From positions 1 to 64,000 of IMG/VR virus record IMGVR_UViG_3300045684_000050: 64,000 nucleotides of DNA; one strand, written 5' to 3'. Position 1 is the stretch's first letter. Every line of letters begins with the position of its first letter. Below the pieces are notes generated by a model, which was given only the letters and a program-made list of their open reading frames with translations, ran no database searches and was not told the DNA's origin. The DNA is from a virus. The position numbers were made by a program, and so were the translations under genes. Below are positions 12,119-52,000 of this stretch, piece after piece.

Positions 12119-12153
12119 CGCTATTTATTGACATTATTGCTGTTTGTTAAAAA

Positions 12154-13166: not shown

Positions 13167-13168
13167 AG

Positions 13169-13339: not shown

Positions 13340-13350
13340 AGTTATAAGTT

Positions 13351-14038: not shown

Positions 14039-14054
14039 AATTAATTAAATATGC

Positions 14055-15969: not shown

Positions 15970-15989
15970 CTTGTTATTGCTTGTTTTTA

Positions 15990-16406
15990 TTACTTAATCA
16001 TTTTGTCAAGTACTTTGCGTACTGTTATTAGATCATGATCGAATCCTCGTTTAATCTTTTCAGCAAGTAATTCTTTGACTGAAAATACACCCATAAATCT
16101 TTCTTTCCAAACGATTAAATGTATAGGAAGAAAACCTTCTTTTTTAACCCTATGATTGAACTTTAAACTACCTTCTTCAGGTTTATACCCTGGATAATTT
16201 TTAGGTGGAGAAGTTTCGTTGTAACCTTTATCTGATAGATAAGATCTTACATTATCTAATTTAAGCTCACTAATAGCAATATCAATGTCATGAATATCCT
16301 CAATTTTTAATAAGTCCAGTTGAACTAAGAGATATGTACCAATTACTTTTCCATCAAAATATCGGCAAATATTATTGACTGTTCTTTTTTGTTCTGTGAT
16401 TTCCAT
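15990..16406 (-). CDS. Putative nucleotidyltransferase-fold protein
   Basis: The 138-residue protein has an IHDIDIAISEL strand (about residues 36-46), which resembles the paired Asp metal-binding motif of nucleotidyltransferases, and a VFSVKELLAEKIKRGFDHDLITVRKVL helix, like the C-terminal segment of AbiEii-type and predicted NTases. The classic GS motif before the Asp pair is not clear, so activity is uncertain. It is the first gene of the leftward unit, expressed from the TTATCTTTG box at 16427-16435, with leader CAACAAACAATAACAAG. Confidence 0.45.
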   Translation of the reverse strand: MEITEQKRTVNNICRYFDGKVIGTYLLVQLDLLKIEDIHDIDIAISELKLDNVRSYLSDKGYNETSPPKNYPGYKPEEGSLKFNHRVKKEGFLPIHLIVWKERFMGVFSVKELLAEKIKRGFDHDLITVRKVLDKMIK

Positions 16407-16426
16407 CTTGTTATTGTTTGTTGAAT

Positions 16427-16435
16427 CAAAGATAA
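16427..16435 (-). promoter_or_regulatory. TTATCTTTG promoter box, leftward
   Basis: The minus strand reads TTATCTTTG 21 bases before the ATG at 16406. It stands back to back with the plus-strand box TATATTTG at 16467-16474, forming a divergent promoter region between the leftward and rightward units. Confidence 0.6.
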
Positions 16436-16466
16436 TAAAATATTTTTTTATTTCCTAATTAAAGTG

Positions 16467-16474
16467 TATATTTG
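16467..16474 (+). promoter_or_regulatory. TATATTTG promoter box, rightward
   Basis: TATATTTG matches TAnnTTTG and lies 38 bases before the small frame at 16512. It would drive the plus-strand genes 16512-18253. A leader AAAACAATAAC directly precedes the ATG. Confidence 0.55.
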
Positions 16475-16511
16475 TCATTATTAACTTAATACAATTGCAA
16501 AAAACAATAAC

Positions 16512-16589
16512 ATGAAAGAATTTAAAGAGTACGTATCTCCTTGCGATATTGAAATTGGCAAAGGAATAAATTCAGCCACCAAAAATTAA
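16512..16589 (+). CDS. Very small hypothetical protein (25 aa)
   Basis: A 25-codon frame (MKEFKEYVSPCDIEIGKGIN and five more residues) begins right after the conserved leader AAAACAATAAC behind a promoter box. Placement exactly where a first gene should start supports translation, as a leader peptide or truncated gene. No family is recognised. Confidence 0.45.
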   Translation: MKEFKEYVSPCDIEIGKGINSATKN

Positions 16590-16613
16590 TTAACTGGTTT
16601 ATAAAATACTAAT

Positions 16614-17177
16614 ATGAATTTAAACTTCATGATAAATTGGCCTGACCATGCAGGTGGCGGCAGAACTAACTTCCCTGAGAAGATACTAGCATCTCTCATT
16701 CAACACTATAGGGATGAAGTTATAGACTTCTATAAAGAGAAACATGGAATACATATCTATGACCCGATAACGACTGTAGACCTATTCAAAACTGCAGCAA
16801 ATTATGACTTCAACTATAATTTTTTTTGGAAAACATATGAAAAAGCTTATCCTGCTAAGATCCACACATTCAGAAGTAATTTTAGGTGGACAGAAGCAAC
16901 AAAAATACATTTTCAAATATGGACAGGAAAACCCTACAACACTCCTACCTTCCAGTTTGCACCTGTAATTCAATGTGTAAGCACTCAAAAGATAGAGATA
17001 ATATATGCAGAACACACTGAATCTCCGTTCATATGGCTAGATGATAAGCCTTTTAACGATAGCATCTATGACATTTCTGTTAACGATGGGTTTCCTACAT
17101 TAAATAAATTCAATAAATTCTTTAACAAGGACTTCGAAGGACAAATTCTCCATTGGACTCCATACAAATACATATAA
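16614..17177 (+). CDS. Hypothetical protein (187 aa)
   Basis: An unrecognised 187-residue protein with many aromatic residues (NYDFNYNFFWKTYEKAY). No signal peptide; no membrane segment. The antisense frame is a shadow. The next gene starts one base after its stop, so these genes form one operon behind the promoter at 16467. Confidence 0.7.
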   Translation: MNLNFMINWPDHAGGGRTNFPEKILASLIQHYRDEVIDFYKEKHGIHIYDPITTVDLFKTAANYDFNYNFFWKTYEKAYPAKIHTFRSNFRWTEATKIHFQIWTGKPYNTPTFQFAPVIQCVSTQKIEIIYAEHTESPFIWLDDKPFNDSIYDISVNDGFPTLNKFNKFFNKDFEGQILHWTPYKYI

Positions 17178-24319: not shown

Positions 24320-24384
24320 TGATAACACTATGTATGATGTCAGACTCGTGCCTCATCCGAACACATACATTTTAACCGTTAGCG
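24320..24384 (-). repeat. attC-like site 6
   Basis: Boxes TGATAAC/GTTATCA (left) and CGCTAAC (right); arms GATAACACTATGTATGATG and GCTAACGGTTAAAATGTATG are mirror-related. The TAA stop of cassette 6 is within CGCTAAC. 65 bases. Confidence 0.75.
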
Positions 24385-24588
24385 AAAATAATCACCTAAC
24401 AATTTTATTATTTCATTTGATATATCTTGCCTACCTTGAAAGTATTTAACATTTGAACTATTGTGAGGTAATTTACCTATTGTTTCGCCTGATTCTTTTT
24501 TGTCATTTTTGACAAAAGAATTTACTTTTGCTAACAAGGTATAAAGTTCATTGCTTAAATCTTTTTTGAGGGTATTTTCTGTACTCAT
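24379..24588 (-). CDS. Cassette 6: small hypothetical protein (69 aa)
   Basis: A 69-residue charged helical protein starting MSTENTLKKDLSNELYTLLA. The start directly follows the shared leader TTTTTTAAACTTAAATT and its stop codon is part of the attC-like right box. The N-terminus resembles cassette 9. No function recognised. Confidence 0.65.
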   Translation of the reverse strand: MSTENTLKKDLSNELYTLLAKVNSFVKNDKKESGETIGKLPHNSSNVKYFQGRQDISNEIIKLLGDYFR

Positions 24589-26759: not shown

Positions 26760-29700
26760 TTACATATCTTCTGTATCGATACTTAATATAAGTCTTCTAA
26801 ATATCACCTCTACATTCGCAGGTTTAAGACTAAGTAATCTTATAACTACATAGTCATCATTAAATACTCCTTTCTGTTCTTTTTGGAGATCCCCAGCTTC
26901 ATAAATCTTTAATTCACTGTTATACTTGTTAAGTGGTGAAATACCATCAGGTACTTGATTTTTAAATTCTTCAACAACGATCCGGTTAGTTGACATTCTA
27001 AACTTAATTTCATCAGTCTCATTGATGTCGTTCAACAGATTCTCGTCAGTATCAATACCTAAATCTCTGAAATCTAACCATCCAGTAGATTGTCTTCCAT
27101 TGTGTACACTAAATTTCTCAAATAAAGGTATATCTAATTCAGTAACTACATCTCCATTATGTTGAAGCACCTCTCCAACCACCATGAAATTCCTTACTAT
27201 CCAATTCTGATATGTCTCTTTATCTACAATCGGAATCTCAACATACACAGGCGTAAGCTGTCCATAATATTCATTAAACCTACCTTGCACAAAATGTGTA
27301 TAGATGATACTCTCACTTAAACTAAACAGTTCAAATCTATTAAACAGAAATAAATCAGGTCTGTATAAATGGAAAGATAAGTAATATTGATTCTTAATAC
27401 TAAACGATACCAAGAAACTCTCATCCTTAAATCCTACTGGATCTCCTAATGTAATAGGACTGCCTTCTCTCATGAATTTGCCGTCACTATAAGTTGTTCC
27501 AGGATGACAGCTAAAGTCATATTTATATAGGTATATGATATCTTTCGCATAATCTATTCCTATATCGAAATATACTCCATCCTTACACTTTTGATCTACT
27601 ATGCTGAAGTCCGGGACATCATCCAATATTTTGAACCGTAAGTTCTCATCCATAAAATCTTCAAGACCTTTGAATGTGATATCCGTATCCTGTCGCCCTG
27701 TATACATCTTAAACCTTCTAGCATCTCTGTCAATATAAAAATATCCTCTGGCCGTTATCTTCGATGCATTAGGATCTTTATTCCCACCGTATCCAGTAAT
27801 TGCTCCTCCGTATATGTCTACCGGCTCGCCAAACAAATTAGCTTGTCCTAATAATATCTCTGTAGAATCTAGTTGAAGCCTTTGTCCTTTAAATGGCACA
27901 TGAAATATAGAATCAGTAGTATGAACACTCAATACATTCTGCATGTATATAAGCCTAGATATTTGACCTCGATCTCTTGGAATGGTTAATAATTGATTAG
28001 GTTTGAAATTTCTCCAGCTATCTAAATGGCTTTCTAATACCTGTTGATCTGACATTATAATCTTAGATGAATATCTACCTTCACATACCTGGGTGTCATA
28101 GTTCAATGGCATCCCAAAAATAAATCCTTCATAATTGATATCTGAGTGACTTACATCGTAGTTATAATGATTGTCCTCGAATCCTTTTGCTCTACCTGGA
28201 TCCATGGCAAAGTCTCCTCCGGGACCATCAGGCATCTTTCTGTCAGGTCTACACCATTCTAATCCTAAGATGCTATCTATAACTTTGTTATCAAGGTCTG
28301 AGTTTGCCCAATCTTTAATCCAAATGATACCTGCAGCTATTAATGCTATACCAAAACCCACAGCAAGTCCAGCTCCAACAGATCCGGCGAAAAAGAACCC
28401 ACTACCAATTTTTGATAAACCAGTATAAATAGCGATAATACCTTGATAGATAAAAAAGAATCCTGGTCCATATACCCATATGATATTTAATATCATTCTA
28501 AGTATCATCTTCCATCGTGGCGGTTCTTCCATAAAGAAAGCTATTCTATCTAACCATCCAAGTTCATAATCAGTACCTTCAGGAAAACTACTATCTAACT
28601 TCAATGTCTTTAATCTATCTTGATGTACCTCTGCAGTTCCGAAATCTAAGTTCTTATAATCACCTATTCTTATTGCCCCTGCTGCCCTATAATGTAAATT
28701 AGCATCTGACTGTAAGTAAGTCCTTACTAATGTCTTTAGTAAATGAGGAAAGTATGCATCAGGTGGTGTCTGTAATGTTATTGTAATAAACCATAGCTTA
28801 ATAATAATACCATCTTCTGATGGTGGTAATAATCCTGCCCCATCCTTGTCCGTTATAGCTCTCATTCCCCTCCTTAGAGATCCTAATGCATTCCTTACAT
28901 CATCTTTATCACCTGTCATAGGAACAGTGCCACATTCTTCAAAACCTGCTACCTTTAATATAGATCTAGCAATTGATGTCAGTAAATCAGAAATAACTCC
29001 ACCAATGATAGGAATATCAACTTCTATCTCTACAGAACCAAAATCTCCACTAGGACTTATTTCTTCAGGAACCTTATCAGATACAAATGCCGACCTCTTT
29101 ACACTAAAAGGACCAGTAAAGCTATCTCCACATATACCTTCCACTTCTCCTGTATCAAAACTTGTGCTGTCACCATGCAAACCTATAGGTATATATACCC
29201 TGTTTATAGAGCTGCCATATTGATTAGGCAGGTACTTCATTGTTGTTACATTCCAAGCTCTTGAGTCACCGATTAAACTTTCATGATCAATAGTATCACC
29301 AATGAAACTCAAATCATCAGCTCCATCACTACCATTCAATGATCCGGCTAATGGTCTGCTTCCGTTCTCTAAAGCTATCTTGCTACCATCAATCTCGACA
29401 TACATAGAACTCTCTCTATATGTATTCACTAAAGTATGAGTGAATTTATTATCCTTTGTGACTATAGAATCTGCAGGTGCATACTTCATTGCTTTTAAGC
29501 ATCTCAATATTGGACCTCCATCAGATCCTATTGGCGGCTGAAAATGATTCAATGATATACTCTGTGTTGTTCCGGCAAGATTTAACTTACTCTCAAATGG
29601 ACTCTCTGCAGGCCGGCCTTCAGAATATTGCTTGAATCTCCAACCACATCCAAATGTCTCTTGCTCGATTAGCAAATAATCACCATCAGTCCTTTTACCC

Positions 29701-33320: not shown

Positions 33321-34778
33321 TCAAAATGCTACTTTTTGTCTAATGATTTCATTTGCTTTATCTAAAAATTGGGACATCTCATATCCTACCATATTTGCAT
33401 CAAACTTGTTAACACAGTACTGAAGATATTCTGTAGGTATCTCAGTCATCTCAGAGCCTACATGCATCCCAAAATGTACATACCGGTATTCTCCATACTT
33501 CTTATTCAACTCTAACGCTGCTTCCTTCTTACTTTTCTTGTGAAACCTCATCGTAATCATCTCCTTAGTAGTACGTACTCCTCCCATCGGAATATTGCTA
33601 AGTAATACATCTTTGGAAAACACCCCCCAACCATGGCCTGGGAAGTCCTCTATAGTTATATTTTCAAGGTATCCAAATCTCCTAATATTACCACAGAAGT
33701 CTATAGCAAATCCATTCCTCTTATTCATTGAAGGTCTTGTAAGTCTCCCAAGCATCTGATAATATAATGCAAAACTATTCGTTGGCCTACCCATCATTAC
33801 GCAATCTAAATCAGGATGATCAAATCCATAACTGAAGATAGAGTGATTGAAAACTATTTGTATATCACCATGTTTGAAGTTCTCTACTATCTCAGCTCTT
33901 TTCTTAGCAGGTGTGCTTCCACTTATAGCTACAGAATTCTTAAATACTTTTGACATACTATTAGCAGTAGCAACACTATCAACAAATACTAATATGTTCT
34001 TCCTCGATGGCATTAACCTTTTCACATTAGCTATTATTCGTTCATTTACTTTGTTGTCAGCAATAGCTATCTTAATAGATGCATCTGTAAATTCAGATCC
34101 AGTTGAGTTTAATCTCAACGATTGATCATTAAAGTCGTAACCTTCATACTTCATAGCAGCCCAATGATCATGCATTATCTCTTGAATTTGTATGACCCTT
34201 ATTACATGATTAAAGAATCCCGGTTCCATGCGTGTCAAGAAGTTTAACCTTGCACCATCAGCCCCATTAAATAGCCTCACAGGAGTAGCTGTAAATCCTA
34301 TACTAACTTTAGGCTGTAAATCATCCATAAACCTAGTAAACATAGATCCAGGCTCAGGACTATATGATGTGTGGCATTCATCCAATAACACATGCTTTAC
34401 ACCTAAATCCTTAAACATCTTACCCTTATTTTTAATGCTTCCTAGCGTAGCAAATGTTATCCTTGATGCTTTCTTTTTATTTAGAGAGGAACTATAAATA
34501 GATCCTTGACCTCCGAAGCTAAGAAACTTCTCAAAGTTTTGCTTCAATAACTCAACTCTAGGCTGCAAGACTAGTATGGGTTCATCTATTATTTTTGCTG
34601 CACTACCTAATAACAAAGATTTTCCTCCCGCTGTAGGAACCACAATAATGCCTTTGGCATGTTTAGTTCGCTTCTCCTTATTGATAGCAAGATAGTCCTT
34701 TATCTTATCCTCACAGTCTTGCTGATAAGGCCTTAACTTAAACTCTGGTAGTGGGTTAAATAAGTTATGCTTTGTCAT
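33321..34778 (-). CDS. Superfamily 2 DNA helicase
   Basis: All main SF2 motifs are visible: motif I VVPTAGGKSLLLG (about residues 45-57), Ia-like VLQPRVELL, II LLDECHT (DECH, about 131-137), III SIGFTATPVRLF, and in the C-terminal RecA domain NILVFVDSVATANS, VFNHSIFSYGFDHPDL and a motif VI YYQMLGRLTRP. At 485 residues this is a compact UvsW/RecG-like phage helicase that unwinds or remodels branched DNA. It lies 14 bases downstream of the DNA polymerase gene in the replication module. Confidence 0.9.
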   Translation of the reverse strand: MTKHNLFNPLPEFKLRPYQQDCEDKIKDYLAINKEKRTKHAKGIIVVPTAGGKSLLLGSAAKIIDEPILVLQPRVELLKQNFEKFLSFGGQGSIYSSSLNKKKASRITFATLGSIKNKGKMFKDLGVKHVLLDECHTSYSPEPGSMFTRFMDDLQPKVSIGFTATPVRLFNGADGARLNFLTRMEPGFFNHVIRVIQIQEIMHDHWAAMKYEGYDFNDQSLRLNSTGSEFTDASIKIAIADNKVNERIIANVKRLMPSRKNILVFVDSVATANSMSKVFKNSVAISGSTPAKKRAEIVENFKHGDIQIVFNHSIFSYGFDHPDLDCVMMGRPTNSFALYYQMLGRLTRPSMNKRNGFAIDFCGNIRRFGYLENITIEDFPGHGWGVFSKDVLLSNIPMGGVRTTKEMITMRFHKKSKKEAALELNKKYGEYRYVHFGMHVGSEMTEIPTEYLQYCVNKFDANMVGYEMSQFLDKANEIIRQKVAF

Positions 34779-34792
34779 TGTATTCTTTGATT

Positions 34793-36307
34793 TTAGATAT
34801 TTTTAACACTTACAGATATATGCTCTCCCAATACAGCATAATGTGCTGCCTTCATCGCATCTACTACACATTGAGTTGCTACTTCATCCAGATCTACTGT
34901 CAATATCTCATCATGCCTTAAACACTTAATAGCATTTAAGGGGAAAGTCCGATCCTTCCCTAAATTAATAACCGCTAACTTTAAAATAACTGAAGCTGTC
35001 CGCTGTACATTGAGACCTATTACTTTCCTGGACAAAATCTTATGCTTATCCATCGCTTCCATAATAACACCCCTCTCCTCTGTATCTCTTTCATGCTTAG
35101 GTATCTTCCAGAAATTATTAGCTTTAGATCTTATTCTTTGATAACCGTCTAACAATTCATCTTTCATGTATTGACCAAGATATCTGCATGTCCAATAATA
35201 ACCCTCTTTGATAGCTACATTGATAAGCTCATTTCTATTCTTAGTAAACTCACAAAGATCATCGATATTTTTATATAAATTATATAGAGACAATGGACTT
35301 ACTTTTATTTTAAATGCTAAACCATCGATTCCCATTCCATTCATCATAGATAATACAGTAATCTTCATCTTATCTCGTTTCGCCTTATGCTTCTCATTCA
35401 TCTCCCCGGGTTGATACTTAACCTTAGACACATAACAATACAAAAATTCATAAAAATCACTATATTCTGACTCTCTAAACACATAAAATATTGGGGGCTT
35501 GAAAATATGCATGTAAATCATTATCTCCTGACTTACATAATCAAAAGACATTATGTTACCATCATAATAGTCAGAACTTAAAGCCTGAATATTAGGTGCA
35601 TAAGTATGAACCCTTCCAGTAATCGAACTATAAGGTTTATGATTAATAGGAATATAGTCACCTATATATGGCTGTATCATTATCCTGTCTGATCGCAACA
35701 AAGAGAATAAAACATATTTGTCAATAGCTTCATCCTTAAATGATCTCAAATTATTAAAAGATAAATCTTCCTGGCCGCTATCAATATCGAAGTAGTTATA
35801 CTTCTTCTTATCAAGATACTTTGTTAATGAAGTCTTTGAAGGAAATGGATTTTTTAACTCTACCATTTTCTTCTCCAACTCAACATACTTCTTTTTTATT
35901 AATTCAGTATTTACAGGAAACTCATGAGCATTTATCCTGTTAAGATAAGAGTGAAATAATGACTCCATATTAATTACCGTCTCAAGCTTCATCGATTTTA
36001 TTATCTTAATCTGTTTATAAAAAACTTCATAAATATGTTTTGGATAGTTTTCCGGCTTATATTTAGGACCAATAGTCTTGTGTAAATATTTCTGAAATAA
36101 AGACCTTAATGTATTACTTTTATGGTAAAATATCACTTTCTCTAATGTCTGTATATCAAGTATTCTAGCATTTACAACCAACTGACAATCATAGCCTATA
36201 ACTGACTTTACACCTTCAGGAATAAATAATTTTTCATCTTTATAGCTATTAGTGCCATCATAATAATAGTACTTAGACTCGAAATAATATATTGCTATTG
36301 AAACCAC
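34793..36307 (-). CDS. Family A DNA polymerase (polymerase domain only, divergent)
   Basis: The C-terminal 320 residues show polymerase A motifs: APNIQALSSDYYDGNIMSFDYVSQEIM (motif A with an extra residue within the DYSQIE signature; catalytic Asp is present), RDKMKITVLSMMNGMG (motif B, O-helix) and KCLRHDEILTVD (motif C, HDE). It would replicate phage DNA. The 504-residue protein lacks the 3 prime-5 prime exonuclease and 5 prime nuclease domains of Pol I. The start is a GTG at 36307; no ATG is found before residue 100, so it is uncertain. It is downstream of the primase block and next to the candidate small RNA. Confidence 0.85.
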   Translation of the reverse strand: MVSIAIYYFESKYYYYDGTNSYKDEKLFIPEGVKSVIGYDCQLVVNARILDIQTLEKVIFYHKSNTLRSLFQKYLHKTIGPKYKPENYPKHIYEVFYKQIKIIKSMKLETVINMESLFHSYLNRINAHEFPVNTELIKKKYVELEKKMVELKNPFPSKTSLTKYLDKKKYNYFDIDSGQEDLSFNNLRSFKDEAIDKYVLFSLLRSDRIMIQPYIGDYIPINHKPYSSITGRVHTYAPNIQALSSDYYDGNIMSFDYVSQEIMIYMHIFKPPIFYVFRESEYSDFYEFLYCYVSKVKYQPGEMNEKHKAKRDKMKITVLSMMNGMGIDGLAFKIKVSPLSLYNLYKNIDDLCEFTKNRNELINVAIKEGYYWTCRYLGQYMKDELLDGYQRIRSKANNFWKIPKHERDTEERGVIMEAMDKHKILSRKVIGLNVQRTASVILKLAVINLGKDRTFPLNAIKCLRHDEILTVDLDEVATQCVVDAMKAAHYAVLGEHISVSVKNI

Positions 36308-36319
36308 GTATATAAAAAG

Positions 36320-36351
36320 TTTGTAATATCAAAATTATTTAACTATTTTTG
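36320..36351 (+). promoter_or_regulatory. Plus-strand promoter with -33 and -7 boxes
   Basis: TTTG (36320-36323), a 20-base spacer and TATTTTTG (36344-36351) match the full Bacteroidota promoter pattern. It points away from all neighbouring genes and towards a terminator 40 bases downstream. Confidence 0.6.
36330..36337 (-). promoter_or_regulatory. TAATTTTG promoter-like box before the polymerase gene
   Basis: On the minus strand TAATTTTG matches TAnnTTTG and lies 23 bases before the GTG at 36307. It overlaps the -33 to -7 spacer of the opposite plus-strand promoter, so the two may compete. Confidence 0.4.
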
Positions 36352-36357
36352 AACCAG

Positions 36358-36421
36358 TTTATAACACAAGGACACTGCCAAATTCCTGGAGGTCTATGAT
36401 TAAGTTCGTAGACCTTTTTTT
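36358..36421 (+). ncRNA. Candidate small RNA opposite the replication unit
   Basis: Between a full plus-strand promoter and a strong terminator (GGTCTATGA pairing with TCGTAGACC, followed by seven T) lie about 60 bases with no open frame. All flanking genes for kilobases are on the other strand. The transcript would be about 60-65 bases, starting near 36358, and lies between the genes for the polymerase and the 102-residue protein. A regulatory or antisense role is possible; there is no homologue I recognise. Confidence 0.5.
36391..36421 (+). terminator. Plus-strand terminator inside a minus-strand block
   Basis: A nine-pair stem with a six-base loop and a seven-T tract. It is oriented for plus-strand transcription and so does not serve the adjacent genes. 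Confidence 0.8.
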
Positions 36422-36439
36422 AGATAACTTTTTGTGCTT

Positions 36440-36748
36440 TTATACTGCTCCATCCCTTAGCTGTTTAGATATAACATCATTGATTAATATCCTGGCTTGT
36501 TCTTTTATGTAATTTGGCTTATTCCAACCAGTACTCCCAGTTAACTCACGATACACAAGTCTCTCTATTTCTTTTTTCATTATTGACTCAGTATTTTCAG
36601 TGTTAATGTTTTTTATTCGATCAGACAATGCTTCCATCACAAGCCCTCTAATTTCTTTCCTAGCTATGGACATTATTTGCCCTTTTATCATGTCCTTGAT
36701 ATAGTCCCTTAGCTCTTTATCTTCTTTGATGTTTAATGTTAATTTCAT
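36440..36748 (-). CDS. Hypothetical helical protein (102 aa)
   Basis: A charged, helical 102-residue protein (KELRDYIKDMIKGQIMSIAR, EIERLVYRELTGSTGWNKP). No domain is recognised. It lies 14 bases downstream of the primase stop and thus belongs to the replication operon. Confidence 0.65.
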   Translation of the reverse strand: MKLTLNIKEDKELRDYIKDMIKGQIMSIARKEIRGLVMEALSDRIKNINTENTESIMKKEIERLVYRELTGSTGWNKPNYIKEQARILINDVISKQLRDGAV

Positions 36749-36762
36749 AATCCTTTTTTTTG

Positions 36763-37686
36763 TTAGATAACTTTTCTTATTGCATCGTTTATGTAGAATT
36801 GGGTGTCAGTCTTTATGATGATATCTGAAGGATCTTTTGCTATGTCACAATGGATAACTTTATCTGTCTTTAGCAACCTGGAGACTACAGTATTATAAAC
36901 CCATCCTGCCGAATCATTATCCCCCCACACTAACCTTATTGGAAATCGTTCTATTAGCTCTGGTGCCATCTTCTCTAATAAGCTGAACATTCCTTCACCT
37001 GAAGTACAGAACGCTTTATACTCATAAGAACAAGCTTCCACACTTACAATATCCTTCATACTTGTAACTGCTATTAGAATATTCCCATTTCTAGGAAGTG
37101 TATCATAGCCTTCTAACTGCCTCATATTTTCATGCCAGAACTTATGAGGTCGATCACCATAAAAATTAAAAGGAGCATAGCCTTTCTTTCCTCCACCTGC
37201 AGGCCAAAAGAAACCAAAATTATCAACACTTGATGTGAAATAGTTTTTAGATAATTTATTAACACTTACTAGTCCTTGGTATTTGTGCCTGTGAAGTAAT
37301 TCCCGAGGAACAAATAAAGACTTAAAATAGTCATAGTGCTCTAACTGTAAAGGCTTCGTTTTAAATGTCAAGGGAATAGAAACATTAGACATTCTCTGCA
37401 TATAACTCCTGGAGTTACTTATCTGTCCATAATTACCGGACTTTATAACTTCCAATGCTTCTTCCCTTGAGCTAACGCCTATCTCCATTTCTGCTACAAA
37501 TCCTATCACATCACTGCCAAAATTTCCTGCATAGCCAAAATCCTTCCAGTATATCCTCTGATTATACATCTTGGTTGAAAAAGAAGGATTATCATCAGAC
37601 CTTCCAGGCAGTGGAGACTTTATTTTCTTACCAATCTGATAATGACTCCCTATATAATGACGATATATAGAAAGCTCGTCAAACAT
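36763..37686 (-). CDS. Toprim-type DNA primase
   Basis: The N-terminal 90 residues resemble a primase zinc-finger/CHC2 region without the Cys-His residues (KIKSPLPGRSDDNPSFSTK, DVIGFVAEM). The Toprim fold is marked by ILIAVTSMKDIVSVEACSY (about residues 205-223) and RLVWGDNDSAGWVYN (about 250-264), which provides the DxD metal ligands, and a closing AKDPSDII. The usual catalytic Glu in the first Toprim motif is replaced by Thr-Ser (TSMKD). The protein would synthesise RNA primers for the phage fork. It shares a base with the upstream gene (TAATG). Confidence 0.75.
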   Translation of the reverse strand: MFDELSIYRHYIGSHYQIGKKIKSPLPGRSDDNPSFSTKMYNQRIYWKDFGYAGNFGSDVIGFVAEMEIGVSSREEALEVIKSGNYGQISNSRSYMQRMSNVSIPLTFKTKPLQLEHYDYFKSLFVPRELLHRHKYQGLVSVNKLSKNYFTSSVDNFGFFWPAGGGKKGYAPFNFYGDRPHKFWHENMRQLEGYDTLPRNGNILIAVTSMKDIVSVEACSYEYKAFCTSGEGMFSLLEKMAPELIERFPIRLVWGDNDSAGWVYNTVVSRLLKTDKVIHCDIAKDPSDIIIKTDTQFYINDAIRKVI

Positions 37687-38165
37687 TATTTGATTTGAAT
37701 AGTCTTCTTAGGAACAAAGATAGCGTTGAATTTATTCTCAGGATTATCCTTGGCCCACTTCTTAAAGTCTGCTAATTTAATCTTTTCTACTATTTCCTTA
37801 ACTACAAATTCTTTAGGAACTTTATCATAAAAGAAATCAGATCCTTTCCTATATCCAATATTGACTACATCTTTTTTGTATGATTCCATTTCATGGACTC
37901 TAAGATATGTGTCAATATTCATAGAGAACCAATTCAATGAATTCTGAGCAGACTTCTTCATAGCAGTAAGCCTCTTTATCTCTTTGTCTATTGCGTCAAG
38001 TTCATCACTCTTCATCTTGTATACGAAATAGTATCCTCTTATCTTATCTTCTCCGTCTGCAATATTCTTGTCATAAGCTTCTAATAATTCATCAGTTGCT
38101 TCTCCTGACTCTAACAGTTCTACCAATTGTAGAAACTCTTGGTTTATTTCATATAACTTTGCCAT
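37686..38165 (-). CDS. Gp157-like phage protein
   Basis: The 159-residue product matches the Siphovirus Gp157 family: an N-terminal helix, AYDKNIADGEDKIRGYYFVY, then DAIDKEIKRLTAMKKSAQNS, then a long C-terminal part with NIGYRKGSDFFYD and KLADFKKWAKDN. The family has been linked to phage resistance when expressed from plasmids and often lies beside single-strand-binding or recombination genes in replication modules. Here it lies between the primase and the SSB-like gene. Biochemistry is not established. Confidence 0.75.
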   Translation of the reverse strand: MAKLYEINQEFLQLVELLESGEATDELLEAYDKNIADGEDKIRGYYFVYKMKSDELDAIDKEIKRLTAMKKSAQNSLNWFSMNIDTYLRVHEMESYKKDVVNIGYRKGSDFFYDKVPKEFVVKEIVEKIKLADFKKWAKDNPENKFNAIFVPKKTIQIK

Positions 38166-38236
38166 ATTCTTAATTTAATTTAATTGTCAATTATTCATAC
38201 TTATGGATATCATGTCATAAGTAAAGGCTACCATGA

Positions 38237-39397
38237 CTAAAATGGTAAATCCTCATAATCCTGTAATGGTGGTGCATCTTCAGGGAAATTAGTATTCTCA
38301 ACACCTGGAGATTTAAAAACTAATCTATCAGGTCTCACTCTATCTTGCCCTACTGCAGGGGGTGGCTGCATCTGTGGTGGCGGTGGAGCTTGTTGTACCT
38401 GTGGTGGTGGCTGTGGTGGTTGATATTGCTGTACTGGAGGCCCTTGTGGTGGAGCTATCGGTGGTGCTTTAACAGGAGGTGGAAATCCAAAATCATCAGG
38501 CCTGGTAGCTTGTCCAAACCCAGCTTGTGGAGAATCAGGAGGTTTTTGGTATCCACCAACTTGCCTTGAAGGGTCAGTATTGTACGTCTGATTTATCGGA
38601 GGTGGTGGTGCCGGCTGCTGATACTGTTGCGGTGGTGGTGCCGGCTGCTGATACACATGAGCCGGAGGTTGCGGCTGCTGATACTGTTGCGGTGGTGGTG
38701 CCGGCTGCTGATACTGTTGCGGTGGTGGTGCCGGCTGCTGATACTGTTGCGGTGGTGGTGCCGGCTGCTTACCTGTAGTCTGCGGTGCATATTGCTGCTG
38801 TTGTGCATATTCATCATATTCGTTTGGGCCCTTTATGCTTTTCAAAATACTTAGCTTGTGAGCAACATCCTGAGTAAACCAACTATACAATGTAGCATTC
38901 TGCTCCCTATAATCCCAAGTCATCCCTTCATACCCCCTAACCTGTACAGGCGGTGGTAAATTATCTGAAGAATATGCTGGAGTTAACTTACTACCGTCCT
39001 GGAATAAATTTAACCCTACATTCCTTTTTCCATCATTCCCGGTGATATCATAAGGAACAATAGTCATTTCTTTCATAATATCTACGTTCCTAAAAATCTT
39101 AGCAAACCTTTTGCCATATCCACTATCAAAAGGAAATGCCAATGAAATTTTATCACCATCAGACTCCATCCATAACCGGATCTCCATGGCATTAAACTTC
39201 TCGTTATTCTGAACTTTAATATCAGAAATATGAGCACTAATGCTACTGAATGAATAGTAGTACAATATACTACCATCTTTCTTCTTTCTAGTGTTCAACT
39301 GATATTGTGGCTGCTCTGGTTGCTCATTAAATGATTGTGTCAACTTACCATTGTAAAAAGATAAGTAAGATGACGAAGATGCTTGTGTTACCTTCAT
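38237..39397 (-). CDS. ssb: SSB-like single-stranded DNA-binding protein with proline-rich linker
   Basis: The first 165 residues form a beta-rich, OB-fold-like domain. A long disordered linker follows, built from PAPPPQQYQQ repeats (five near-identical ones) and further Pro/Gln-rich sequence to about residue 360. The C-terminus ends in APPLQDYEDLPF, the acidic tip plus Pro-Phe that defines bacterial SSB proteins and recruits partner enzymes. Its position beside the primase and Gp157-like genes supports this. The 386 residues are twice the usual SSB length because of the linker. The OB fold itself is inferred. Confidence 0.7.
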   Translation of the reverse strand: MKVTQASSSSYLSFYNGKLTQSFNEQPEQPQYQLNTRKKKDGSILYYYSFSSISAHISDIKVQNNEKFNAMEIRLWMESDGDKISLAFPFDSGYGKRFAKIFRNVDIMKEMTIVPYDITGNDGKRNVGLNLFQDGSKLTPAYSSDNLPPPVQVRGYEGMTWDYREQNATLYSWFTQDVAHKLSILKSIKGPNEYDEYAQQQQYAPQTTGKQPAPPPQQYQQPAPPPQQYQQPAPPPQQYQQPQPPAHVYQQPAPPPQQYQQPAPPPPINQTYNTDPSRQVGGYQKPPDSPQAGFGQATRPDDFGFPPPVKAPPIAPPQGPPVQQYQPPQPPPQVQQAPPPPQMQPPPAVGQDRVRPDRLVFKSPGVENTNFPEDAPPLQDYEDLPF

Positions 39398-40002: not shown

Positions 40003-40010
40003 CAAATATA
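40003..40010 (-). promoter_or_regulatory. TATATTTG promoter box of the replication unit
   Basis: The minus strand reads TATATTTG 37 bases before the ATG at 39965. The leader that follows is A/C-rich and contains no Shine-Dalgarno sequence. It would drive genes from 39965 leftwards. Confidence 0.55.
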
Positions 40011-40050: not shown

Positions 40051-43000
40051 TTATTTTTTCTTTTTGGCGACTCTATTTGCTCTAAGGAAATCAAGATATC
40101 TGGAATCATTTTTCACTTTCCTAGCTAGTCTAAATACTTCTTCTTGCCTTTCTTCAGGATCTTTTATGCGTTCTAATGACTTTATATCTTCAGATACATA
40201 TTCATTGAATATATCTGACCAAATTTTTTGTGCATCTCTCTTGGCAGCAGTCTCTAAATAATAGTCACTTGTATTGACTTTCAGTTGAGCTTGAGATCTA
40301 TATTTATATAATTCATAGCTATCAATATCTTTACCATGGATAATTTTATATGCCGGGTTCTTTTCTGCTTCATTCATGTATTGACCCATCCTATCCGCAA
40401 ATGCATCAGGAAAGAAGTAAGTGTCAAAAGTAGTAGGGATTTCATTACCTAAAATATCGTGTCTGGAATCATCATCTTTCTCAAATAACGGTACATTCCT
40501 TAAAAAAGCATTCATAAAGGTTTCATTAAAATCCTCTCCATATAGATTCTGTCTTGGAGTTCCTGCAAACTCTTTATATTGTGTGAACCCTTGTCTATAA
40601 AAACTAGAGAATGTTTGAGCATTTAGTAATCCACCCATCTTAGATGCCAGCCTATTCTTAGCAAACTCTTTATCATTCTGATACCTTCGCTTCTCGTTAT
40701 CGTTCTCTGCTCTTAATATATTTCCATCAGCTTGTTTGATGGCAGTATAAGAATCTACCATATCAATAGCTGCATCAATACCAATTTCAAACCCTTCACC
40801 ATATATATGCTTTAATGCTCCCATAGCAAAAGTCTGTGCCACAATACCTGGACTTACCTCCTGTCCTGTATCAATCTTATCTCCAATAACACCAATCATT
40901 CCTAATGGTGCAGATAATGGCGTTTCAGTCCAATTCAAATGAAAACCTCCTATAGATATCGTGTTTTCTCTGAAATCATTACCAAGTCTATTTCTATTTG
41001 TTGTGTAATCTCTATAACCTTCAGAAGTAATACTTACCATATCCCACCAGTATTTATTCTTTACTGGCTTTAAATTCCCATCCTCATCTTCTTCCCAATC
41101 AAAAGCCATGGCTATTAAACCCAAAGCCATTCCAGTTCCTACTCCAGCCCTTATTCTAAAAGATTCTCTGTCTGCTTTACTTTTACGATTGTCTTTTATT
41201 AAAAGACCAGCTTCATCATTCTTTCGCCATAAGGATGAAAAAGAAAATCCAGGAACTCGCTTTAAATCCTCTAACGATACATTATTAATTAATACCTTTC
41301 CAGAACTAATATCAAAGGATAATCGGTCAATATTTGTGAATTCAGTAAGACCGGCTTGAATAAGTGCTAATGGAGACCAGTTATAACCTAAATATATACC
41401 ATTCCCTACAGTTCTTACAATAGGAGCAAAAGTTATCCTTAATAGTTGATCCGCTATTGCAGCTACAGTACTACCCTTATTTGCCCCTCGTGTAGTAGCT
41501 GTCAATGCATAAGCAATACCTCCACTAAATAATCCATTTACTTGACTATTTAAAACAGACGTTGTTAATGCTCTATCGTGAGCCTCTTTCCGAACACTTC
41601 TTGCAGCAACATTATCTTTACCTAACTTATCGACACTAGCCTGATAGGCTTTTTCCCTATTTTCTAACACTAAACTTTTTTTAATAGTAGCTAATTCACC
41701 TTTTGATAAATTTGGATCTTCTTTTATTATTGCGTTTATCTTGTCATTCAGATCCTTAGTATATTCACCTCCTACTCCTAATGCCGTTTCCATCTCATTA
41801 AAGAATTCAGCATTACCTCTTTTGAAGTCATAATCATACTTCTTCATTACTTGATCATGTGCCTCAATAAATGTAAGTGGCTCAACAGCAAATGTATTCA
41901 AGAATACATCAATAGCTTGTAATGACCTTACCATTATTCCCGGAAGAAATATAGCAGTACCAAATAAACCATTAAGAATAGATTCAGCTTTACCTAATTT
42001 TGTTTTGCCACTAAATTTTTGTAGATGATTAGAGATAAGTTCTTTTCTTGTTTTAGCATCAGGACCCCTCTGCCCAAAGATAAGATCCATACCATGATTA
42101 AGAATTACATCAATACTACTATACCCTTGATCTGGTATCTCCTCATAACTAACTCCAGGAGCTCCTCGCTTGAATGCATCAAAAAATAATTTAGTAGCAG
42201 TTGCTCTAAATAATTCCTTATTATTCTTTTGATATTTTAAGAAATTACCTATCTGACCTCTTAATGCTAATTGAGGTAAAGCTACAAAAGCAGCTTCTAC
42301 TAGGACTAATATTCCGGATGCGGCAACAGCCTTTAATACTGTATTTTGACCAGAAAGAAGATTTATAAATCTGACACCTGTCAATATCTTCATATACCTT
42401 TGCTGCTTACTCTCTTTAGCTTCTCTCATTATAGTATGCAGCTCCCTAGATGCAGCTTCCCTATTTCTAGGGTTTACATCTTCTTCAATTATCTTTGTAA
42501 GATCTGCAGCCCTTTCAACTTCTTCTTCCGTTAATTCCCGAAGACCAAATTTTTCTGCAAATCTCGCAACAATACCTGCATCTGTCATATCACCTATCCT
42601 AATGATATCTCTCATTCTTTCTTCAATAGTAGCTCGCTGTCTATTACTCCTAACACTTGATTTTAACAATCGATTTACTAACTTAATCCTTTTCTCTCCA
42701 ATAACCTTGTGGTAGGTCCCATTTAATACTTCAGCTAAAGCGGTAGCATCAGCTACAGATAGATCCATATCCCTAATTAACGAATCAGTAAGCATTCTTA
42801 CACTAAGATTGCCTTGTTTTACACTCTTTCTCATTATAGCTCCCATGGCTATATTCGAATAGTTCTGTGGCTTAGTACCATAAGGAATATCAATGCCAGC
42901 AGCTTTCAATTGCTCAGGACTCAACTTAGAGATACCATATGTTATAGCACTCATTATCTTTGACCTACTAGCATTAACAAAATTCTGATCAAGACTTAAT

Positions 43001-46000
43001 GCATCAATCAATGACTTGACCTGGCTAAATTGCTCTCTATATTTCGCTAACCCTTCACTTGTCGTCTGTGCATTAAGATGTGCTTCTATATTTGATAATG
43101 ACTTCTGTAAAACTTGTAATGCATTCTCTCTATTTAAAAATAAATCAGTCAATGCCTTTACACTATCATTTGAAATAATGAAATCTTCTGGCAATGCACT
43201 CTTTAAAAATTTACCTGTATGAAGTTTCTTGAATTCATTCCTTAATGTATTCCTTAAAGTACTATCAATTTTCCCAAGCCTTGTTGTAAACTCAGCAACT
43301 ACTTTATTCGCATATTGATTATCAATATATTTTACAATATCAAGATTATCTTTAAAAAAAGCACCGATATCATCGATATAATCTAACTCTAATAAAAAGT
43401 TCTTTACAGCATCTAACGCTGCATCAGCACTAATTTGTGGATCTTCAAAAATTACACCTATGGTTCCTTTTACTTCTTCCTTATTCTTAATATTAAGTTT
43501 TGAGAAAAATGGATTATTATCAATATTAGTGTCTGTCCTAGAAGTACGTTTTTCTCCAAACAGCTTCAACATTCTGTCAACTAATTCTCTCTGATCCTGA
43601 CTTAAATTGTTAAGTCTCGATGCAGCATTAATTATTTCTTGATTAGATAACAGGTCTTTAGTCTCAGAATCAGCATTTTTTGCAACTTCACCTGATATGA
43701 ATTTAGAGAACTCCGCTAACGTCATACCATCTTTATCCATAGTAACTTTCTCAGCTTCTTTAAAATCAACACCACTCATTCTATTACTAATATTGATAAA
43801 CTCTTTACCCATAGTAGCACTCTCTAAATTCCTGGCCGCATGGCCAATAGCAGGAAAAGCACTGGTGACTTGAGTGATCTCAGCTCTGGTAATATTTATT
43901 TCTTCTTGAATTCCATCAACTTCTACTCCAAATGGAGCAGCAGATAAAGCTAATTGCTTATTTAATAAATGGTCTAATGTAAGAACATATATATCTAAAT
44001 CTCTTAAATCAAAATCTCCTCTCCTAAAGGCTTTTAATTCATTGACAAAATTACTTAAAGAAGCTTGATCATTACCGATACCAACTAACATTGAATCTAC
44101 TGCAGCAAATAATTCCTCAGTAGTCCTCCTATAAGATTGAATATCATTAAGGTCATCTAACTGTGCATCACGCAACTCTGGACCTAACTTAGTGAAAAGT
44201 CTACGCATGGTCCTATTAACTTCTGGATCAGATACAAAGTCAGCAGATCTCTGAATAGACGATTTTGCACTCTCCCGGGTATATGCCTGTCTTACAAATT
44301 CTTCCTTGATCCCTCTTCTATCAAATTCAGGCTTAAATGCTTCATAGAAAACATCGAATGTAGCTTCATCTTTAAAACGATCTACTCTCTCATTCAAATA
44401 GTCTTGTTGCTCCTTTAATAACCCTCGATCCCTAAGAGATCCTTCGAATTGCTTTATGTAAAACTTCCCATTAGCATCCTTTCTAAGTATATCAGCAAAA
44501 AATGATGTATTACCAATCCTAACTACATACCTACCTCCATCAACTTGATATATATGCCTTACGTTTCCAGATGCATATTCTCTCTCTCCTTGGAAATTCT
44601 TAATCCATATAGTTACTTTATCTCCAACCTTAAAATGCCTATTCCTATTGAACCTGGCAAAGAATGGTTGCGTTTGTCTATTAAAAAGATCAGCACCCCC
44701 TCTATAGTCTTCAATCCTAAAAACTTCGCCCTTGCTAAAAGAATCAGCAATACCATTAACAACATTGATTAAGTCATTAATCGTATCTACCTCTATATCA
44801 ACATCTCTGCCTATCAACTCATTAAACCAAGCTTTTATACCATCTATTATCTGTTGAGTTTTAGGTTTTGATATCCTTCCAGAGACTGTAGATAACAATC
44901 CGACTAACTCAGCAAAAAATTCATTGGCCCGGACAATATCTAATGGCCTATTACCTTGAGCCTTTGTATATTGAGATACAAAGGTCTCTACCTTCAATGC
45001 TAAATCTTTCTCGAAAGCATTACCATTGTTCAGTACACTACTAATGATGTTATGTAATTCTACAATTCTATCTGAACTAGATAAAAATGTCTTTACAGCA
45101 ATAGCATGTACAGCTTCGTGTACTACATCCTTTGAAGTTGATACTTCTGAATTTATATATATGGTATCAGTTATAGGATCATAAACTCCTTTGACATTAA
45201 CACCATACTTACTATGTAATCCTATAGTATTCGAAACAACAAATTTCGTCCCAGGACTTACCTTAGACAAAACTATCTTAGCTTTACTTATTGCATCCTG
45301 AATATCTGTTCCTACACTGACAGATACTTCTTCTACATTAACACTATCAAGATCAGTATCACTCATGGAGATGACGGTACCATCAGCAGCCTTCAAAATA
45401 TAATTCCTTACTCCATTGTCATACTCAATACCATCTACAGTAAATATCCCTTCATATCCAATCTCTCTTAATTCATAAACATCACCTACATTTAGCAATG
45501 CATCTGGGTCTTGAACATTTAACTCAGAAACTAGCTTTTTATATTGTGAAGCTAAAGGCACATTATTGCTTACCGCCAATTCCAATACGTCACGCATGAA
45601 CTCATCGACACCTGCAAAACCATCGTTAGGCTTCCTATTCAATACATGCATATAATATGCATTAACAATAGAATCAGGACTCGTTATTCCATAGTTCTTT
45701 TGTATATCTCTCATCTCCTCTCTAGTGAAAGGATATAACTCCATAGCATCAAACTTTCCGCTTTCAGGAAATGCAACAGCATTGGCCAACATCAACGCAC
45801 CCTTTGTTTTATTAAATTCGCTAGGGAATAGATCATAGTAATCCGCTGCCAATCTAGCAACATTCCCATCAACATTCATCGACAAGTAATACTGATAAGG
45901 GTTTGCTACTGCATCTGGAAGATCCATCTGCTCAATAGCGTCCAAGGTATAATTGCTATCAGTGATGTTCTCAACACCTGCTTGGGAATACCTATTTGAT

Positions 46001-49000
46001 AAATCTCCAAAACTGATATCATTGTTTAAGAAGTCAGCAGCATAAGCATCCCATACCTTAGTTATATCTGCCTTTAATAACCCTCCTTCCAAAAGATCAG
46101 AAATATTATCTAGGATTTCATTCTTTTTCGTTGAATTTGGTAATAAATTTCCACTAACCAAAGACACATATGCCCTGTAAACATTTGTATTTGTATTTCT
46201 TATAAAATCTGACGGGTTCTCTACACCTAAACTACTCAATGCCCTTCGCATGGCACCTTTAAAAATATCAGTCAACCTCTTATCTATACCAGACTTTAAT
46301 GTGTTAACAGCAGAGTTATATTGAACCGGGTTAATCCCGTTCTCCATTATCTCTGCATCAATATTTTCATTTATCTCACCTAAAGCAATATCTACAGCTA
46401 CTTGATTGATAGAGTCATTAAGACTATAAAAAATATCATTATCATTACTGAAGCCTTTTTCAATTAAAGTTTTCAATACATTGATATCCGCTGCATCTTT
46501 CGATGGGTCCAAACTATCAACAAATAAATTAGTCTTCCCTGTAAGTATATCTGCCTTACCTAAACTCTGCCCAAACATATCAGCTCCTGAATTGTCTTCA
46601 GCAGATTTATTGAAACTCTTGACATAATCCTTAAAGGCTCTCTCTCCACGAGTAATATAATAGGCAGCTAAAATACTATTTGTAGTATATCCGGATCCAG
46701 AAAATAATGACAACTGATTTACTAACCCAGCAATACCACTTAACCCTTTTGATCCATTAGTATAATCATTTAATAATCGAATAGCTCCATTGATATCATC
46801 AATAATACTAAAACCTTTTAATCCTGAATTAACAAGCAAATCGGCACCTGCATAAGAAATAGCATTGAAGACAGACTTTAATCCATCTTTTCTTGCTAAC
46901 GAAAGCAGATCGTTATCAATGGTAGCAGACATTATCGTTACCTTTAATAGATCCTTTCCTAGATCAGTAAGTCTTGTTGATTTACCTTCTGTAGCAAAAT
47001 ATAAAGGAGCCTCATTGTTATTGATTATCTCTGACTTTAATAATATCTTTTTGAATTCATTGACATTAGAAGTCACAGCATAGTACTCACTAAGCACATC
47101 ATATTCTGACACACTTTGTGCAATTGATGATATTATCTTAGCTGAAAGCTGACTCTTTATTCTTTGTGATTTCTCCTCTATAGATTCACTTTTTATAGCA
47201 CTTGCATTGAATTTATGGAATTGAGCCTTTGTATATGCCGCTTCATCTGTCAACTCTCTAACAAGGACAGGAGTATCAAAAGCTTCCATCGCAGCATCAA
47301 ATTCCTTCTTATTGAATCCTAATCCTTCCGAATAATCAGGTAAGGCAGAAACATACAATCCATCAGTTCCATTAGTAGCTGCTAATTTTCTGGACATGGT
47401 TCTATTGTTACCACTAATAACAATACCATCTCCGGTAACTACAATAGGTTCATCTAATGCTCTCTCATCAAACCTGGATGCAAAAGTAACTACAGCAGCC
47501 TTAGCATCTTCGTTACTCTCATAGTTCCTTGAATTTACGGTGGTGCCATCTTCATTCGTAGGAAACCCTTCTGTCTGGCCGAATGTGTTTTCATCATGTG
47601 ATGCAAATATATTAGATGCATCTACTAATACATATTTAGCATTTAATCTCTCACCACTAGGTAATATTATTGGTCTTGATTTACCTTCTACTTTCCGAGC
47701 ATTAGTATAACTACCAATTACCGCTTCGCTCGCCTGACCTGTAGTTCCATCATCTGGAATATCTTCGCGTCCGTACTCTTCAAAATCTTGATCATCTTGT
47801 AATTCTTCTTCAATTTCAAATTCAGGATAGTTCTCAATGATATATGGAGACTTCTTTAACTCAGTAAATAACCCAGCAACAAATATATCCTTTGAGCTGT
47901 TATTAAAAGCTCTTAACATTCCAGCCTTTAAGTCTACTGAACTGATATTGCTACCATCAACAAACACTTCATTGCCAACTACAGTAACAGGATCATTAGT
48001 ATAATCTACATTGCCTGCCAAGGACATGAAAGGTTCTGCATCAACAGATGACCTTACTATCCTTACTCCTTGAGCTCTTAACCTATTCTCTACCTCTACA
48101 TCTGTACCTTCAGGAACAATAGCTACTCCAAAAGCTCCTACAGATACTGGATGATTTAAATTAGTCTGTGATACACCTTCTGGATAATCCCTCACCTGGG
48201 AAACAAAATTGTCAACTAGCTCTTTTAATTCTGGATCCACCAAAGCACCTTCATCACCAGTCCTAAAGTATTCATTTATTGAATTCAATACAGCATTGGT
48301 AGCATCAGAATTTTGCCTCAAATATAATTGCTTGCCTTGATTTACTATATTCATCATACTACCCTTGGCATCTTCCAATAGTGTGCCTACATATTTAGGA
48401 TTACTGCTCTCTGATTTATTGACAGCTATATCCCTAACACTGGTAAACTGAGAATTGTCATTTTCAAAAACTCCTACACTACCTGCAGCATTCTTCGCAG
48501 CATTGATGAAGTGTTTCGTTATCCTCTCAATAGGATTGCCTGAGAACTCTATGACACCTGTCTCCTCAAAAGGAACAAATACATTCTCTGCATTGATATT
48601 GTTATTTGATAGATTCAATGCATCCTGAGTGCCAACAAGAACTATCTGTCCTGATGAGCCGGCCACATTATCTGTCAATGATATCGAAGTTATAGAATCA
48701 TCACCTGTAATGTCTTTAGCATCTAATTTAGCTATTACACTTAATCCCTGTGGATTCCTGGAAAATAAAGCATTTTGACCTTCAGGTGCCTTTTCTTTTC
48801 CCTGTAATACATTAGCTACTTCAGAAACATAATCTCCATTATTAGAATACACATTTACCTTTATACTTCCTCTTAAAATAAAAGGAATATATGGTTCTAC
48901 CTGAGCATATAATTCAGGATGATTCTTTTTCCAATTCTTTATAGTAGCTGCATCAACTTCTAAGCTTACATCATCTATCTCCTCAGAGATATCGATACTT

Positions 49001-52000
49001 GTAGTATTGAAGATTACAGATTTCTTTTTAGAAAGATTAGTGTTATCTACTCTTTTAGCTTCTACCTCATTCTCTATACGTCTTGACTCGGCTGCACTAA
49101 GGATGGCTCCGTTCCTACCTGTGCTGGGGTTGTACCTGCGATACCTTCCTGCATCAACGTCCCATCGGTAGTTTTTTCCTCCATTGCTGGTGTAGAACTC
49201 GGGTTTGCCACCTGATTCGTTATTTCTGTCTTCAGGTCTTGTGCTTCTTGTCGGAGTTTGCTGTTCTGTGCCCCTTCTTGTGTTGGGCTGTCCGGAACTG
49301 CGGATACCACGGATGGTCCGGGCCTTACCTCCTTCTGTGAATCCAGAGACGACGCCTTGTTCTGCTTTCTGAACTCCATCAACCTGCGGAGAATTGGCAT
49401 CTGCTTCTCTTGTGATAGCTTGTTCAGCCTTTGTAATAAGCTGCTCTGATTGCTCGAGCTGCTCAAGATCGGATTGGATATTAGGATCATTGTTTAATAA
49501 GTCTTTTTGAATTAAAAATGCGATGTCATTAGCTTCCTTTCCTGTAAATTCTACTTCTTCAGTATTGATAGCTGCATCATTACCATATTCACCTGTAAGT
49601 GTACTCTTTTGTAATACTACAGATGTAACATTTCCTTGATCATCATATGTGATAGCATCTACTATGTCCGGAGCAGTATACTTCTCTCCATTAATATTAA
49701 AACTACCATCACTTGTAATATTAATAGCAGTAACAGGAGATACTCCTAGTTCAGATAAACTTACATCTACCTGATCATTAATGTTACCTAATTCCCTAAT
49801 AGTATTGTTCTGTTCAACTTCTAACCTACCACCTTCAGTAAGCCTTAATATCGCAGGCTGTCCGTCAGTAGTAAGGACTTCTACCTCTTTATCACCTTTA
49901 AGATCCTGATTGTCTAAATCGAAAGCATTATAAACACTATCATCTGGGATCCTGGTAAATTTCTTTCTCTTTCTTATTTCTTCATCCTGAAGATTCTCGT
50001 CAACTGGAGGAACAACAGTTCTTGCATTAGTATCTGCTATCTGACCAAAATCATAAATATCCCTAAGTTTATTTACAAATTTCTGAGAAGTAGTATTATT
50101 AAAGTTCTCTATAATAGCTGCTGATTGTTCAGGACTTGCACCTTGGAATAACCTACTATTGGTTATATCATCTTCTGTAAGCTCACCAATTTCAGCTAAG
50201 TATTCTAATTTGCGAATCTCCTTCCCTGCATCATAAGTAACATCTTGAGTAGTAGGATTTCCTTCTCCATCCACATCAATTACTTGCACTTTACCTTCAG
50301 CTGCTTTCTCTTCTTTTATATAATCAGTAAGAACCTTATCTGTATTAGTCATTGGCCTTAGTGGCTCATCTGGGTTGTCAATGACTTCTTCAGGATCCTC
50401 GTCTATCAAGTTCTCTTTTGCAGCTTGAGCCCTTAGATCATTAGCCGTAACTTTTGGTGGTATTGGAGGTGCCTTAATATCTTCCTCTGCCCGGGACTGT
50501 GAAGTATCAACAACATTTTCTTTAACTACCTCGGCATTAGCAAATATAGCATCTACTCTCTTATCAAATAAACCCTTGACATCTTTGCCTCTTACTGTCT
50601 GACTTGTTTCCCTATAAACAATATCTTCTAATTCTGCCTGTTGAGATTTAGTTAAATTGACGTTTGTTTCTTTCTGTTTTTCACTGATATAGTTAAGCCT
50701 ATTCTTGGCCTGAACTACCATCTCAGCTTTTTTTATAGCTTCTTCTTCTGTGATCTGGCCGTCAGCAATCATTTGTCCTAATGTCTCTGAAAACCTCTCA
50801 TAGTTATGAGCAGCCTGGACTACCATCTTCCCATATTCATTCTTTAATGTATTGTAGTTTGATACTGCAGCTATAGGTGCAGTAGCTAATGGTGTAGTTA
50901 CCAATGTTGTAACAAAATCATTAATTGTCACATTACTCTCAGCACCAAACAAACTATTAGCCATGGCTTGACTATACAATACCGATATCTCCTCCGCTTC
51001 CTCTCCTACAATTTCCTTTTTTATACCCTTAAATAAACTTTTATTGAAATTAAATTCTAATGGAGACTTAATAGCATCTTCAGCAGCTCTCTTCCCTGCA
51101 TTTTTAAATGCTGTGCCTCTCGCTGCATTGATAACACCTTTCTCAAATCCACCTATCAATGTACCTCCAGATTCAATACCTGCAGTTATTGATCCATATA
51201 AAGCAGCTTTTCCTGCATCTCCACTCCTTGCTAATTCCTCTTGATAAGCAGTACCATACGTCTGAACAAATAATGTGCCTACCAATCCGGCTCCCCCTGT
51301 AGCAGCACCAGCAGCCAACATAGGAGCCATCTGAACTACAGTATTAAATGTATTGTATGCAGCAGACTTAACTTGACTGGCACCAATACTCAACTCAGGA
51401 GTATAAGACCCTTTGTTTATATTATATTTATCAACAGCAGCCTTTTCTTCATCTGTCATGTTAACAGCAGTCTTCCCATCTGGCCTTATTATCCTAGTAA
51501 ATTCTCCACTATCATCAACCGCTACAACATGACCATCTATGTTGACAGTCTTTTCCCATAAAGGAGCAGAATAATCACTCCTTACCGTCGTTTCTTCTAA
51601 TTTCTTGACCTGCTTTAAAAAGTCTTGATTTGACAACTGATTAAAAAGTCTTTTCTTAGCCGGCCCAAAACCAGGTTCCTTATTCGCTGCTTCCAGCAAC
51701 TCTTTATTAGGATCTCCAGACACTAAACTTGGTAATGATTCCCAAAAATCAAGATATGATTGCTTTAGACTATTCCTTACCGTGCCAACAACACTAGGCT
51801 TTTGACTCGGCATTAAGTTCTGAATTGGATTCAATAAGCTAGGAATATCACTAATATTAAATAAGGATTGATCCTCATCCCTATCTGCCTGAATATCTTG
51901 TTGTGCTGCACCTACAGCTTCATCGACTCGATCTCCTTCCTCTACACCTTTAGTTCCGAAACCAGAAGTTACACTAAATCCCTTTCTTATCTCTTTACTT

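Follow-up and report, generated by a model that had tools for sequence, protein, structure and literature searches.

In phage lambda, the RNA OOP and its promoter pO provide the long-known example of a replication region opposed by a short transcript: the RNA is short and terminated, it runs against the replication operon, and the activity of its promoter matters for replication, according to excerpts from two published accounts (PMC3985674; PMC12197685). Among Bacteroides, excerpts from PMC7366714 describe DonS-type RNAs of 78–128 nt, which are cis-antisense and divergent from the gene that they affect. Ten novel RNA species, nine of them antisense, were found in Yersinia phage phiR1-37, and their exact role is given as unknown in the part of the source that treats them (PMC12197685). 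Our literature search on small RNAs of crAss-like phages found no report. The promoter consensus of Bacteroidetes comprises a -33 box TTTG and a -7 box TANNTTTG, the latter revised to TAHHTTTG; in the relevant excerpts, transcription in Flavobacterium johnsoniae starts 4–5 nt past TAHHTTTG, with a weak -33 box (PMC6847099).

The locus described here lies in a window of 64,000 nt (the whole stretch of DNA analyzed), which is part of a virus record of 116,794 bases (IMGVR_UViG_3300045684_000050). Judging by matches to its helicase, primase and polymerase, it is a neighbor of the crAss-related and Cellulophaga phages: helicase identity is 41% to phage csAssE-Sib and 35% to Cellulophaga phage phi17:2, while the DNA primase (36763–37686, minus strand; phrog_12622, E 1.9e-13) shows 24–29% identity in the best 20 of the 27 records that it matches, many of which are from Crassvirales. 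The primase gene is followed on the same strand by a gene of 102 aa with no family match (36440–36748), located upstream of a gene with a GTG start (34793–36307, minus strand) for a 504-aa family A DNA polymerase, assigned by phrog_17 (E 1e-9) and by alignment. What we take to be the DYxxQE, K and HDE motifs of this enzyme are present. Its exonuclease domain is short and, in an alignment with six relatives, ExoI reads DCQ where these read DxE, so that proofreading may be gone.

Between 18333 and 63676, the minus strand carries all the genes of at least 100 aa but one, a 125-aa frame (28846–29223) nested in a gene of 1803 aa; the original prediction likewise had all the genes around the candidate plus-strand RNA on the opposite strand. 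The gap of 132 nt between the 102-aa gene and that of the polymerase is the largest in 32566–61871 in the gene list used, where the others reach at most 85 nt. We found neither iterons nor a change in skew near 36.3 kb, which leaves a replication origin without support. A decayed polymerase N-terminus was also considered as the source of the gap (a lost exonuclease start; one frame reads LIIDLQEF), and was rejected after the alignment with the six relatives: VIGYDCQ of the window protein aligns with their ExoI motif and the start of the polymerase thus looks complete, a judgement and not a proof at the 12–21% identity of these sequences to the window protein. Profile comparisons on this supposed N-terminus (probability <1%) were too weak for use, and the predicted structure of the polymerase (pLDDT 31) was of no use. 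Some other frames of this genome are unusual: a single frame of 4289 aa occupies 40051–52920 (minus) in the replication/structural region; a 386-aa protein with a proline/glutamine-rich repeat of the QQPAPPPQQYQ type and locally high GC is encoded at 38237–39397 (minus), adjoining a Gam-like gene; and the record also carries, downstream of the window, a cysteine-rich repetitive frame of 2141 aa (10309–16734 of locus L004, minus).

The gap contains, on the plus strand, an intrinsic terminator (36388–36421), which is the strongest part of the observation. It consists of a 12-pair stem (36388–36417) with a loop of 6 nt and a tract of seven T (36415–36421), and it starts 36 nt after the -7 box of the promoter described below, close to the 40 bases originally proposed. 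Strict terminators were defined by at least nine unbroken pairs, at least four G-C pairs, a loop of 3–8 nt and at least six T in eight, a rule that was set after inspection of the first hairpin list and that replaced a choice by hand. Six sites in the window comply (8342, 11002 and 36388 on the plus strand; 18698, 12028 and 11070 on the minus strand), versus a mean of 0.07 and a maximum of 1 in 60 shuffled windows; the 36388 hairpin is not attributable to chance. Three G-U pairs of its stem become mismatches in the minus-strand RNA, and its energy is -15.9 kcal/mol on the plus strand versus -9.7 on the minus strand (RNA fold z = -2.95). Being much stronger as plus-strand RNA, the element is built for that strand, and the remaining five strict terminators likewise favor their own. 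A stable GC-bearing stem, a U tract and a higher stability on its own strand, as expected of intrinsic terminators, are thus all found here.

This is also the only one of the six strict terminators without a preceding gene on the same strand. An early comparison included seven hairpins picked by hand for a clean stem and a T tail, omitting weaker or imperfect ones such as 56009–56044 and 2257–2301 (both minus); the 36388 hairpin had a promoter site with a score of 10/10, and the other six had none of at least 9/10 within 180 nt. The strict rule was then applied to 120 records from this and related phages (119 loci plus the window; 1.68 Mb), with genes called by a simple longest-frame rule; some loci were duplicated, and stems of repeated sequence were passed over, as were sites close to the end of a record. 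Of the 112 distinct terminators retained, 97 were preceded by a gene on their own strand at no more than 300 nt, and 15 were orphans; a TAHHTTTG box occurred within 180 nt of four of these 15, and the full -33/-7 promoter only in that from the window. Several of the other 14 orphans have A tracts on their far side and so may serve the opposite strand. Additionally, a TATCTTTG box (12117–12110, minus) is followed by the strict terminator at 12057–12028, shortly before the frame 11754–11960; this 12028–12117 element could be either another short RNA or a leader subject to attenuation.

The original prediction also placed a promoter with both boxes ahead of the hairpin, and we found an exact match to a Bacteroidetes-type promoter at 36320–36351 (plus), with TTTG at -33 (36320–36323), a spacer of 20 nt and TATTTTTG at -7 (36344–36351). 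The -7 box agrees with the TANNTTTG and TAHHTTTG forms recognized by sigma-ABfr, and the spacing with the 19–21 nt, approximately, that separate both boxes; matches in a sigma-70 scan were at chance level. The exact motif occurs twice in the whole window, for an expectation of 1.66, and is therefore not significant by itself; we took as chance the second match (24499–24530, plus), which is inside the minus-strand frame 24379–24588 and is not followed by a strict terminator. Locally the motif is rare, appearing in 3 of 3000 shuffles of 36308–36388, 6 of 3000 of 36250–36388 and 18 of 3000 of 36308–36439. As to the TANNTTTG box, there are 93 in the window; the 5,662 bases between genes contain 17, compared with about 8.2 predicted from their length alone, and clear boxes directly upstream of genes are found at 16427–16434 (minus), 16467–16474 (plus) and 40003–40010 (minus). 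This intergenic excess fits the use by the phage of host-type promoters, with a contribution from AT-richness.

From the spacing of start sites after the -7 box in F. johnsoniae, transcription would begin near 36356, giving an RNA of about 65 nt (36356–36421) composed of a loose 5′ part of 30 nt and the terminator hairpin. The combination of an orphan terminator, a strand-asymmetric hairpin and an exact promoter supports well a small plus-strand RNA, and we consider it probable from the sequence that the locus produces a short RNA with its own terminator. No complete frame exists in 36352–36421, as anticipated; a frame of 38 codons from the only ATG in this interval (36396) was discarded as coding because it starts within the hairpin and extends beyond the terminator. 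The covariance models of Rfam 15 gave no match at gathering in the window, and the five matches far below gathering in 34500–38300 did not include any at 36320–36421.

By its sequence features, namely its own promoter and terminator, a position opposite to the operon and the lack of an ORF, the putative RNA resembles the cis-antisense small RNAs of phages. Like OOP/pO, in the excerpts cited above, it would be short, terminated and opposite to the direction of a replication operon. However, OOP is antisense to the cII gene, whereas the RNA from the window would cover no coding sequence save by read-through; its neighbors are a polymerase gene and the 102-aa gene, and its promoter is of the Bacteroidetes type. 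It would share with DonS the bacterial phylum and a divergent orientation from the putatively affected gene; DonS, as excerpted from PMC7366714, acts on susC homologs in host polysaccharide loci, while the RNA described here would be phage-borne and of about 65 nt. The RNAs of phiR1-37 are, in the part of the source cited, phage-made and mostly antisense, as is proposed for this one, but they are known from RNA-seq and belong to an unrelated phage.

The plus-strand promoter had been proposed to overlap a minus-strand box for the polymerase gene and to control its expression by antisense or promoter interference. A possible polymerase -7 box, TAATTTTG (36330–36337, minus), indeed lies between both boxes of the plus promoter, so that the overlap stands, although no -33 element matching at 3/4 positions was found at 18–21 nt from it. 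With the spacing of F. johnsoniae, an mRNA from this box would start near 36325 with a leader of 18 nt. The two transcripts would then form divergent units whose promoters overlap and whose RNAs share no base; antisense pairing would thus be limited to mRNA reading through from the primase and 102-aa genes, which is our reason for favoring promoter competition over antisense control of the classical kind. Predicted pairing of the whole RNA with 79 gene starts ranked the polymerase 67th and the 102-aa gene 25th. Direct antisense control, as originally suggested, therefore appears weak, and promoter competition is the likeliest link between the RNA unit and the polymerase gene.

Our preferred explanation for the gap, held tentatively and at somewhat less than an even chance, is that overlapping divergent promoters and a terminated opposing RNA of about 65 nt affect the expression of the polymerase. 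Two sigma-A type promoters would occupy the gap, one facing left toward the polymerase gene and the other directing rightward the synthesis of the RNA, which would be ended by a dedicated terminator ahead of the upstream genes. We infer that RNA polymerase positioned on one promoter would exclude the other, lowering or timing the expression of the DNA polymerase. The RNA could also pair with read-through mRNA of the primase operon across the gap, possibly leading to double-strand cleavage between the 102-aa and the polymerase cistrons.

Several searches for relatives of this region were negative. There was no DNA relative of 34793–37686 in the phage collection, and no close relative in IMG/VR with single queries for polymerase, helicase and primase or in a polymerase search of genome contigs; the search with the hairpin pattern gave 0 matches. 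By tblastn, none of the loci aligned by helicase (80 loci) or primase (31 loci) had the neighbors of the gap, the polymerase search near helicase loci covering 34 of the 80 and that with phrog_17 covering 29 hand-chosen loci. Among eight distant polymerase genes (those with long frames among 16 loci), none had an antisense strict terminator within 400 nt upstream, which argues against an old and widely kept element and is silent on close kin. Aside from this, one family A polymerase from these loci seems to be split (G041:C1:60753–64167; L129 and L135), with two matches about 1 kb apart, corresponding to profile positions 669–980 and 980–1301, and several stops in the second piece.

The functional interpretation must be weighed against other readings of the same features. 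The one that survives best, which we nevertheless find rather unlikely, is that the AT-rich and symmetric promoter region of the polymerase fires both ways and that the terminator merely keeps stray plus-strand transcription out of the 102-aa and primase genes, without any function for the RNA itself. The divergent and overlapping boxes and the position of the terminator, directly ahead of the 102-aa gene at its 3′ end, are as this reading predicts, and no trans target for the 5′ part rises above shuffles (24 of 40 shuffled minima were as low); the authors of the B. thetaiotaomicron study also caution, in the excerpts cited, about random promoters at low GC (PMC7366714). Conversely, the exact -33/-7 pair exceeds what local stray AT-richness provides.

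Less probable still is that promoter and hairpin are chance products in the AT-rich debris of a decayed tandem duplication. The segment 36383–36432 (minus), which contains the hairpin, aligns over 54 columns with 36722–36775, which covers the last part of the primase gene and the first part of the 102-aa gene. The alignment scores 48, and the best of 1000 shuffles scored 47; with lenient scoring, one shuffle in 1000 equaled or surpassed the real alignment. The second half of the copy has 19 matches in 30 positions, equaled in 0 of 5000 shuffles, an optimistic value because the register was set by the alignment. The 102-aa gene is thus flanked by near-repeats, as following tandem duplication or insertion. 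This origin and the chance-level count of promoters in the window are in accordance with leftover sequence, but a 12-pair stem with a tail of seven T is unexpected by chance, promoter and terminator are in the correct order on one strand, and a repeat search detected no hairpin in the original copy. The terminator apparently formed, therefore, inside the decayed copy. An improbable elaboration is that a regulatory RNA was born from this duplication: in the copied start of the 102-aa gene, ATG would have become ACG, abolishing the start codon, and the sequence would have drifted into a perfect hairpin, now the terminator of an antisense RNA retaining partial complementarity to the 102-aa translation start. 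Since it would also sit at the polymerase promoter, one short RNA could link the expression of the primase operon and of the polymerase.

In phage T4, the gp43 operator offers a comparison for a protein-binding leader element before a polymerase gene. The hairpin might similarly act in the leader of the minus-strand mRNA, through processing, stability or protein binding, with its terminator look being incidental, and its location in the widest intergenic space of the listed region, about 80–110 nt before the polymerase start, is suitable for such a role. However, the weaker energy on the minus strand (-9.7 vs. -15.9 on the plus), the T tract on the plus side and the lack of overlap with the polymerase start make this as improbable as the birth of a regulator from the duplication. 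Action in trans on phage or host mRNAs is the least likely, because the best pairings of the largely unstructured 30-nt 5′ part, which could otherwise suit it, with 70 gene starts were matched by 24 of 40 shuffled RNAs.

The joint occurrence, within a co-directional operon, of an orphan strict terminator and an exact -33/-7 promoter, which picked a single site in 1.68 Mb, provides a cheap screen for finding further phage RNAs. If real, the overlapping promoters and the terminated RNA that we favor would give a crAss-related phage a point of control over its replication polymerase, at the RNA or the promoter level.
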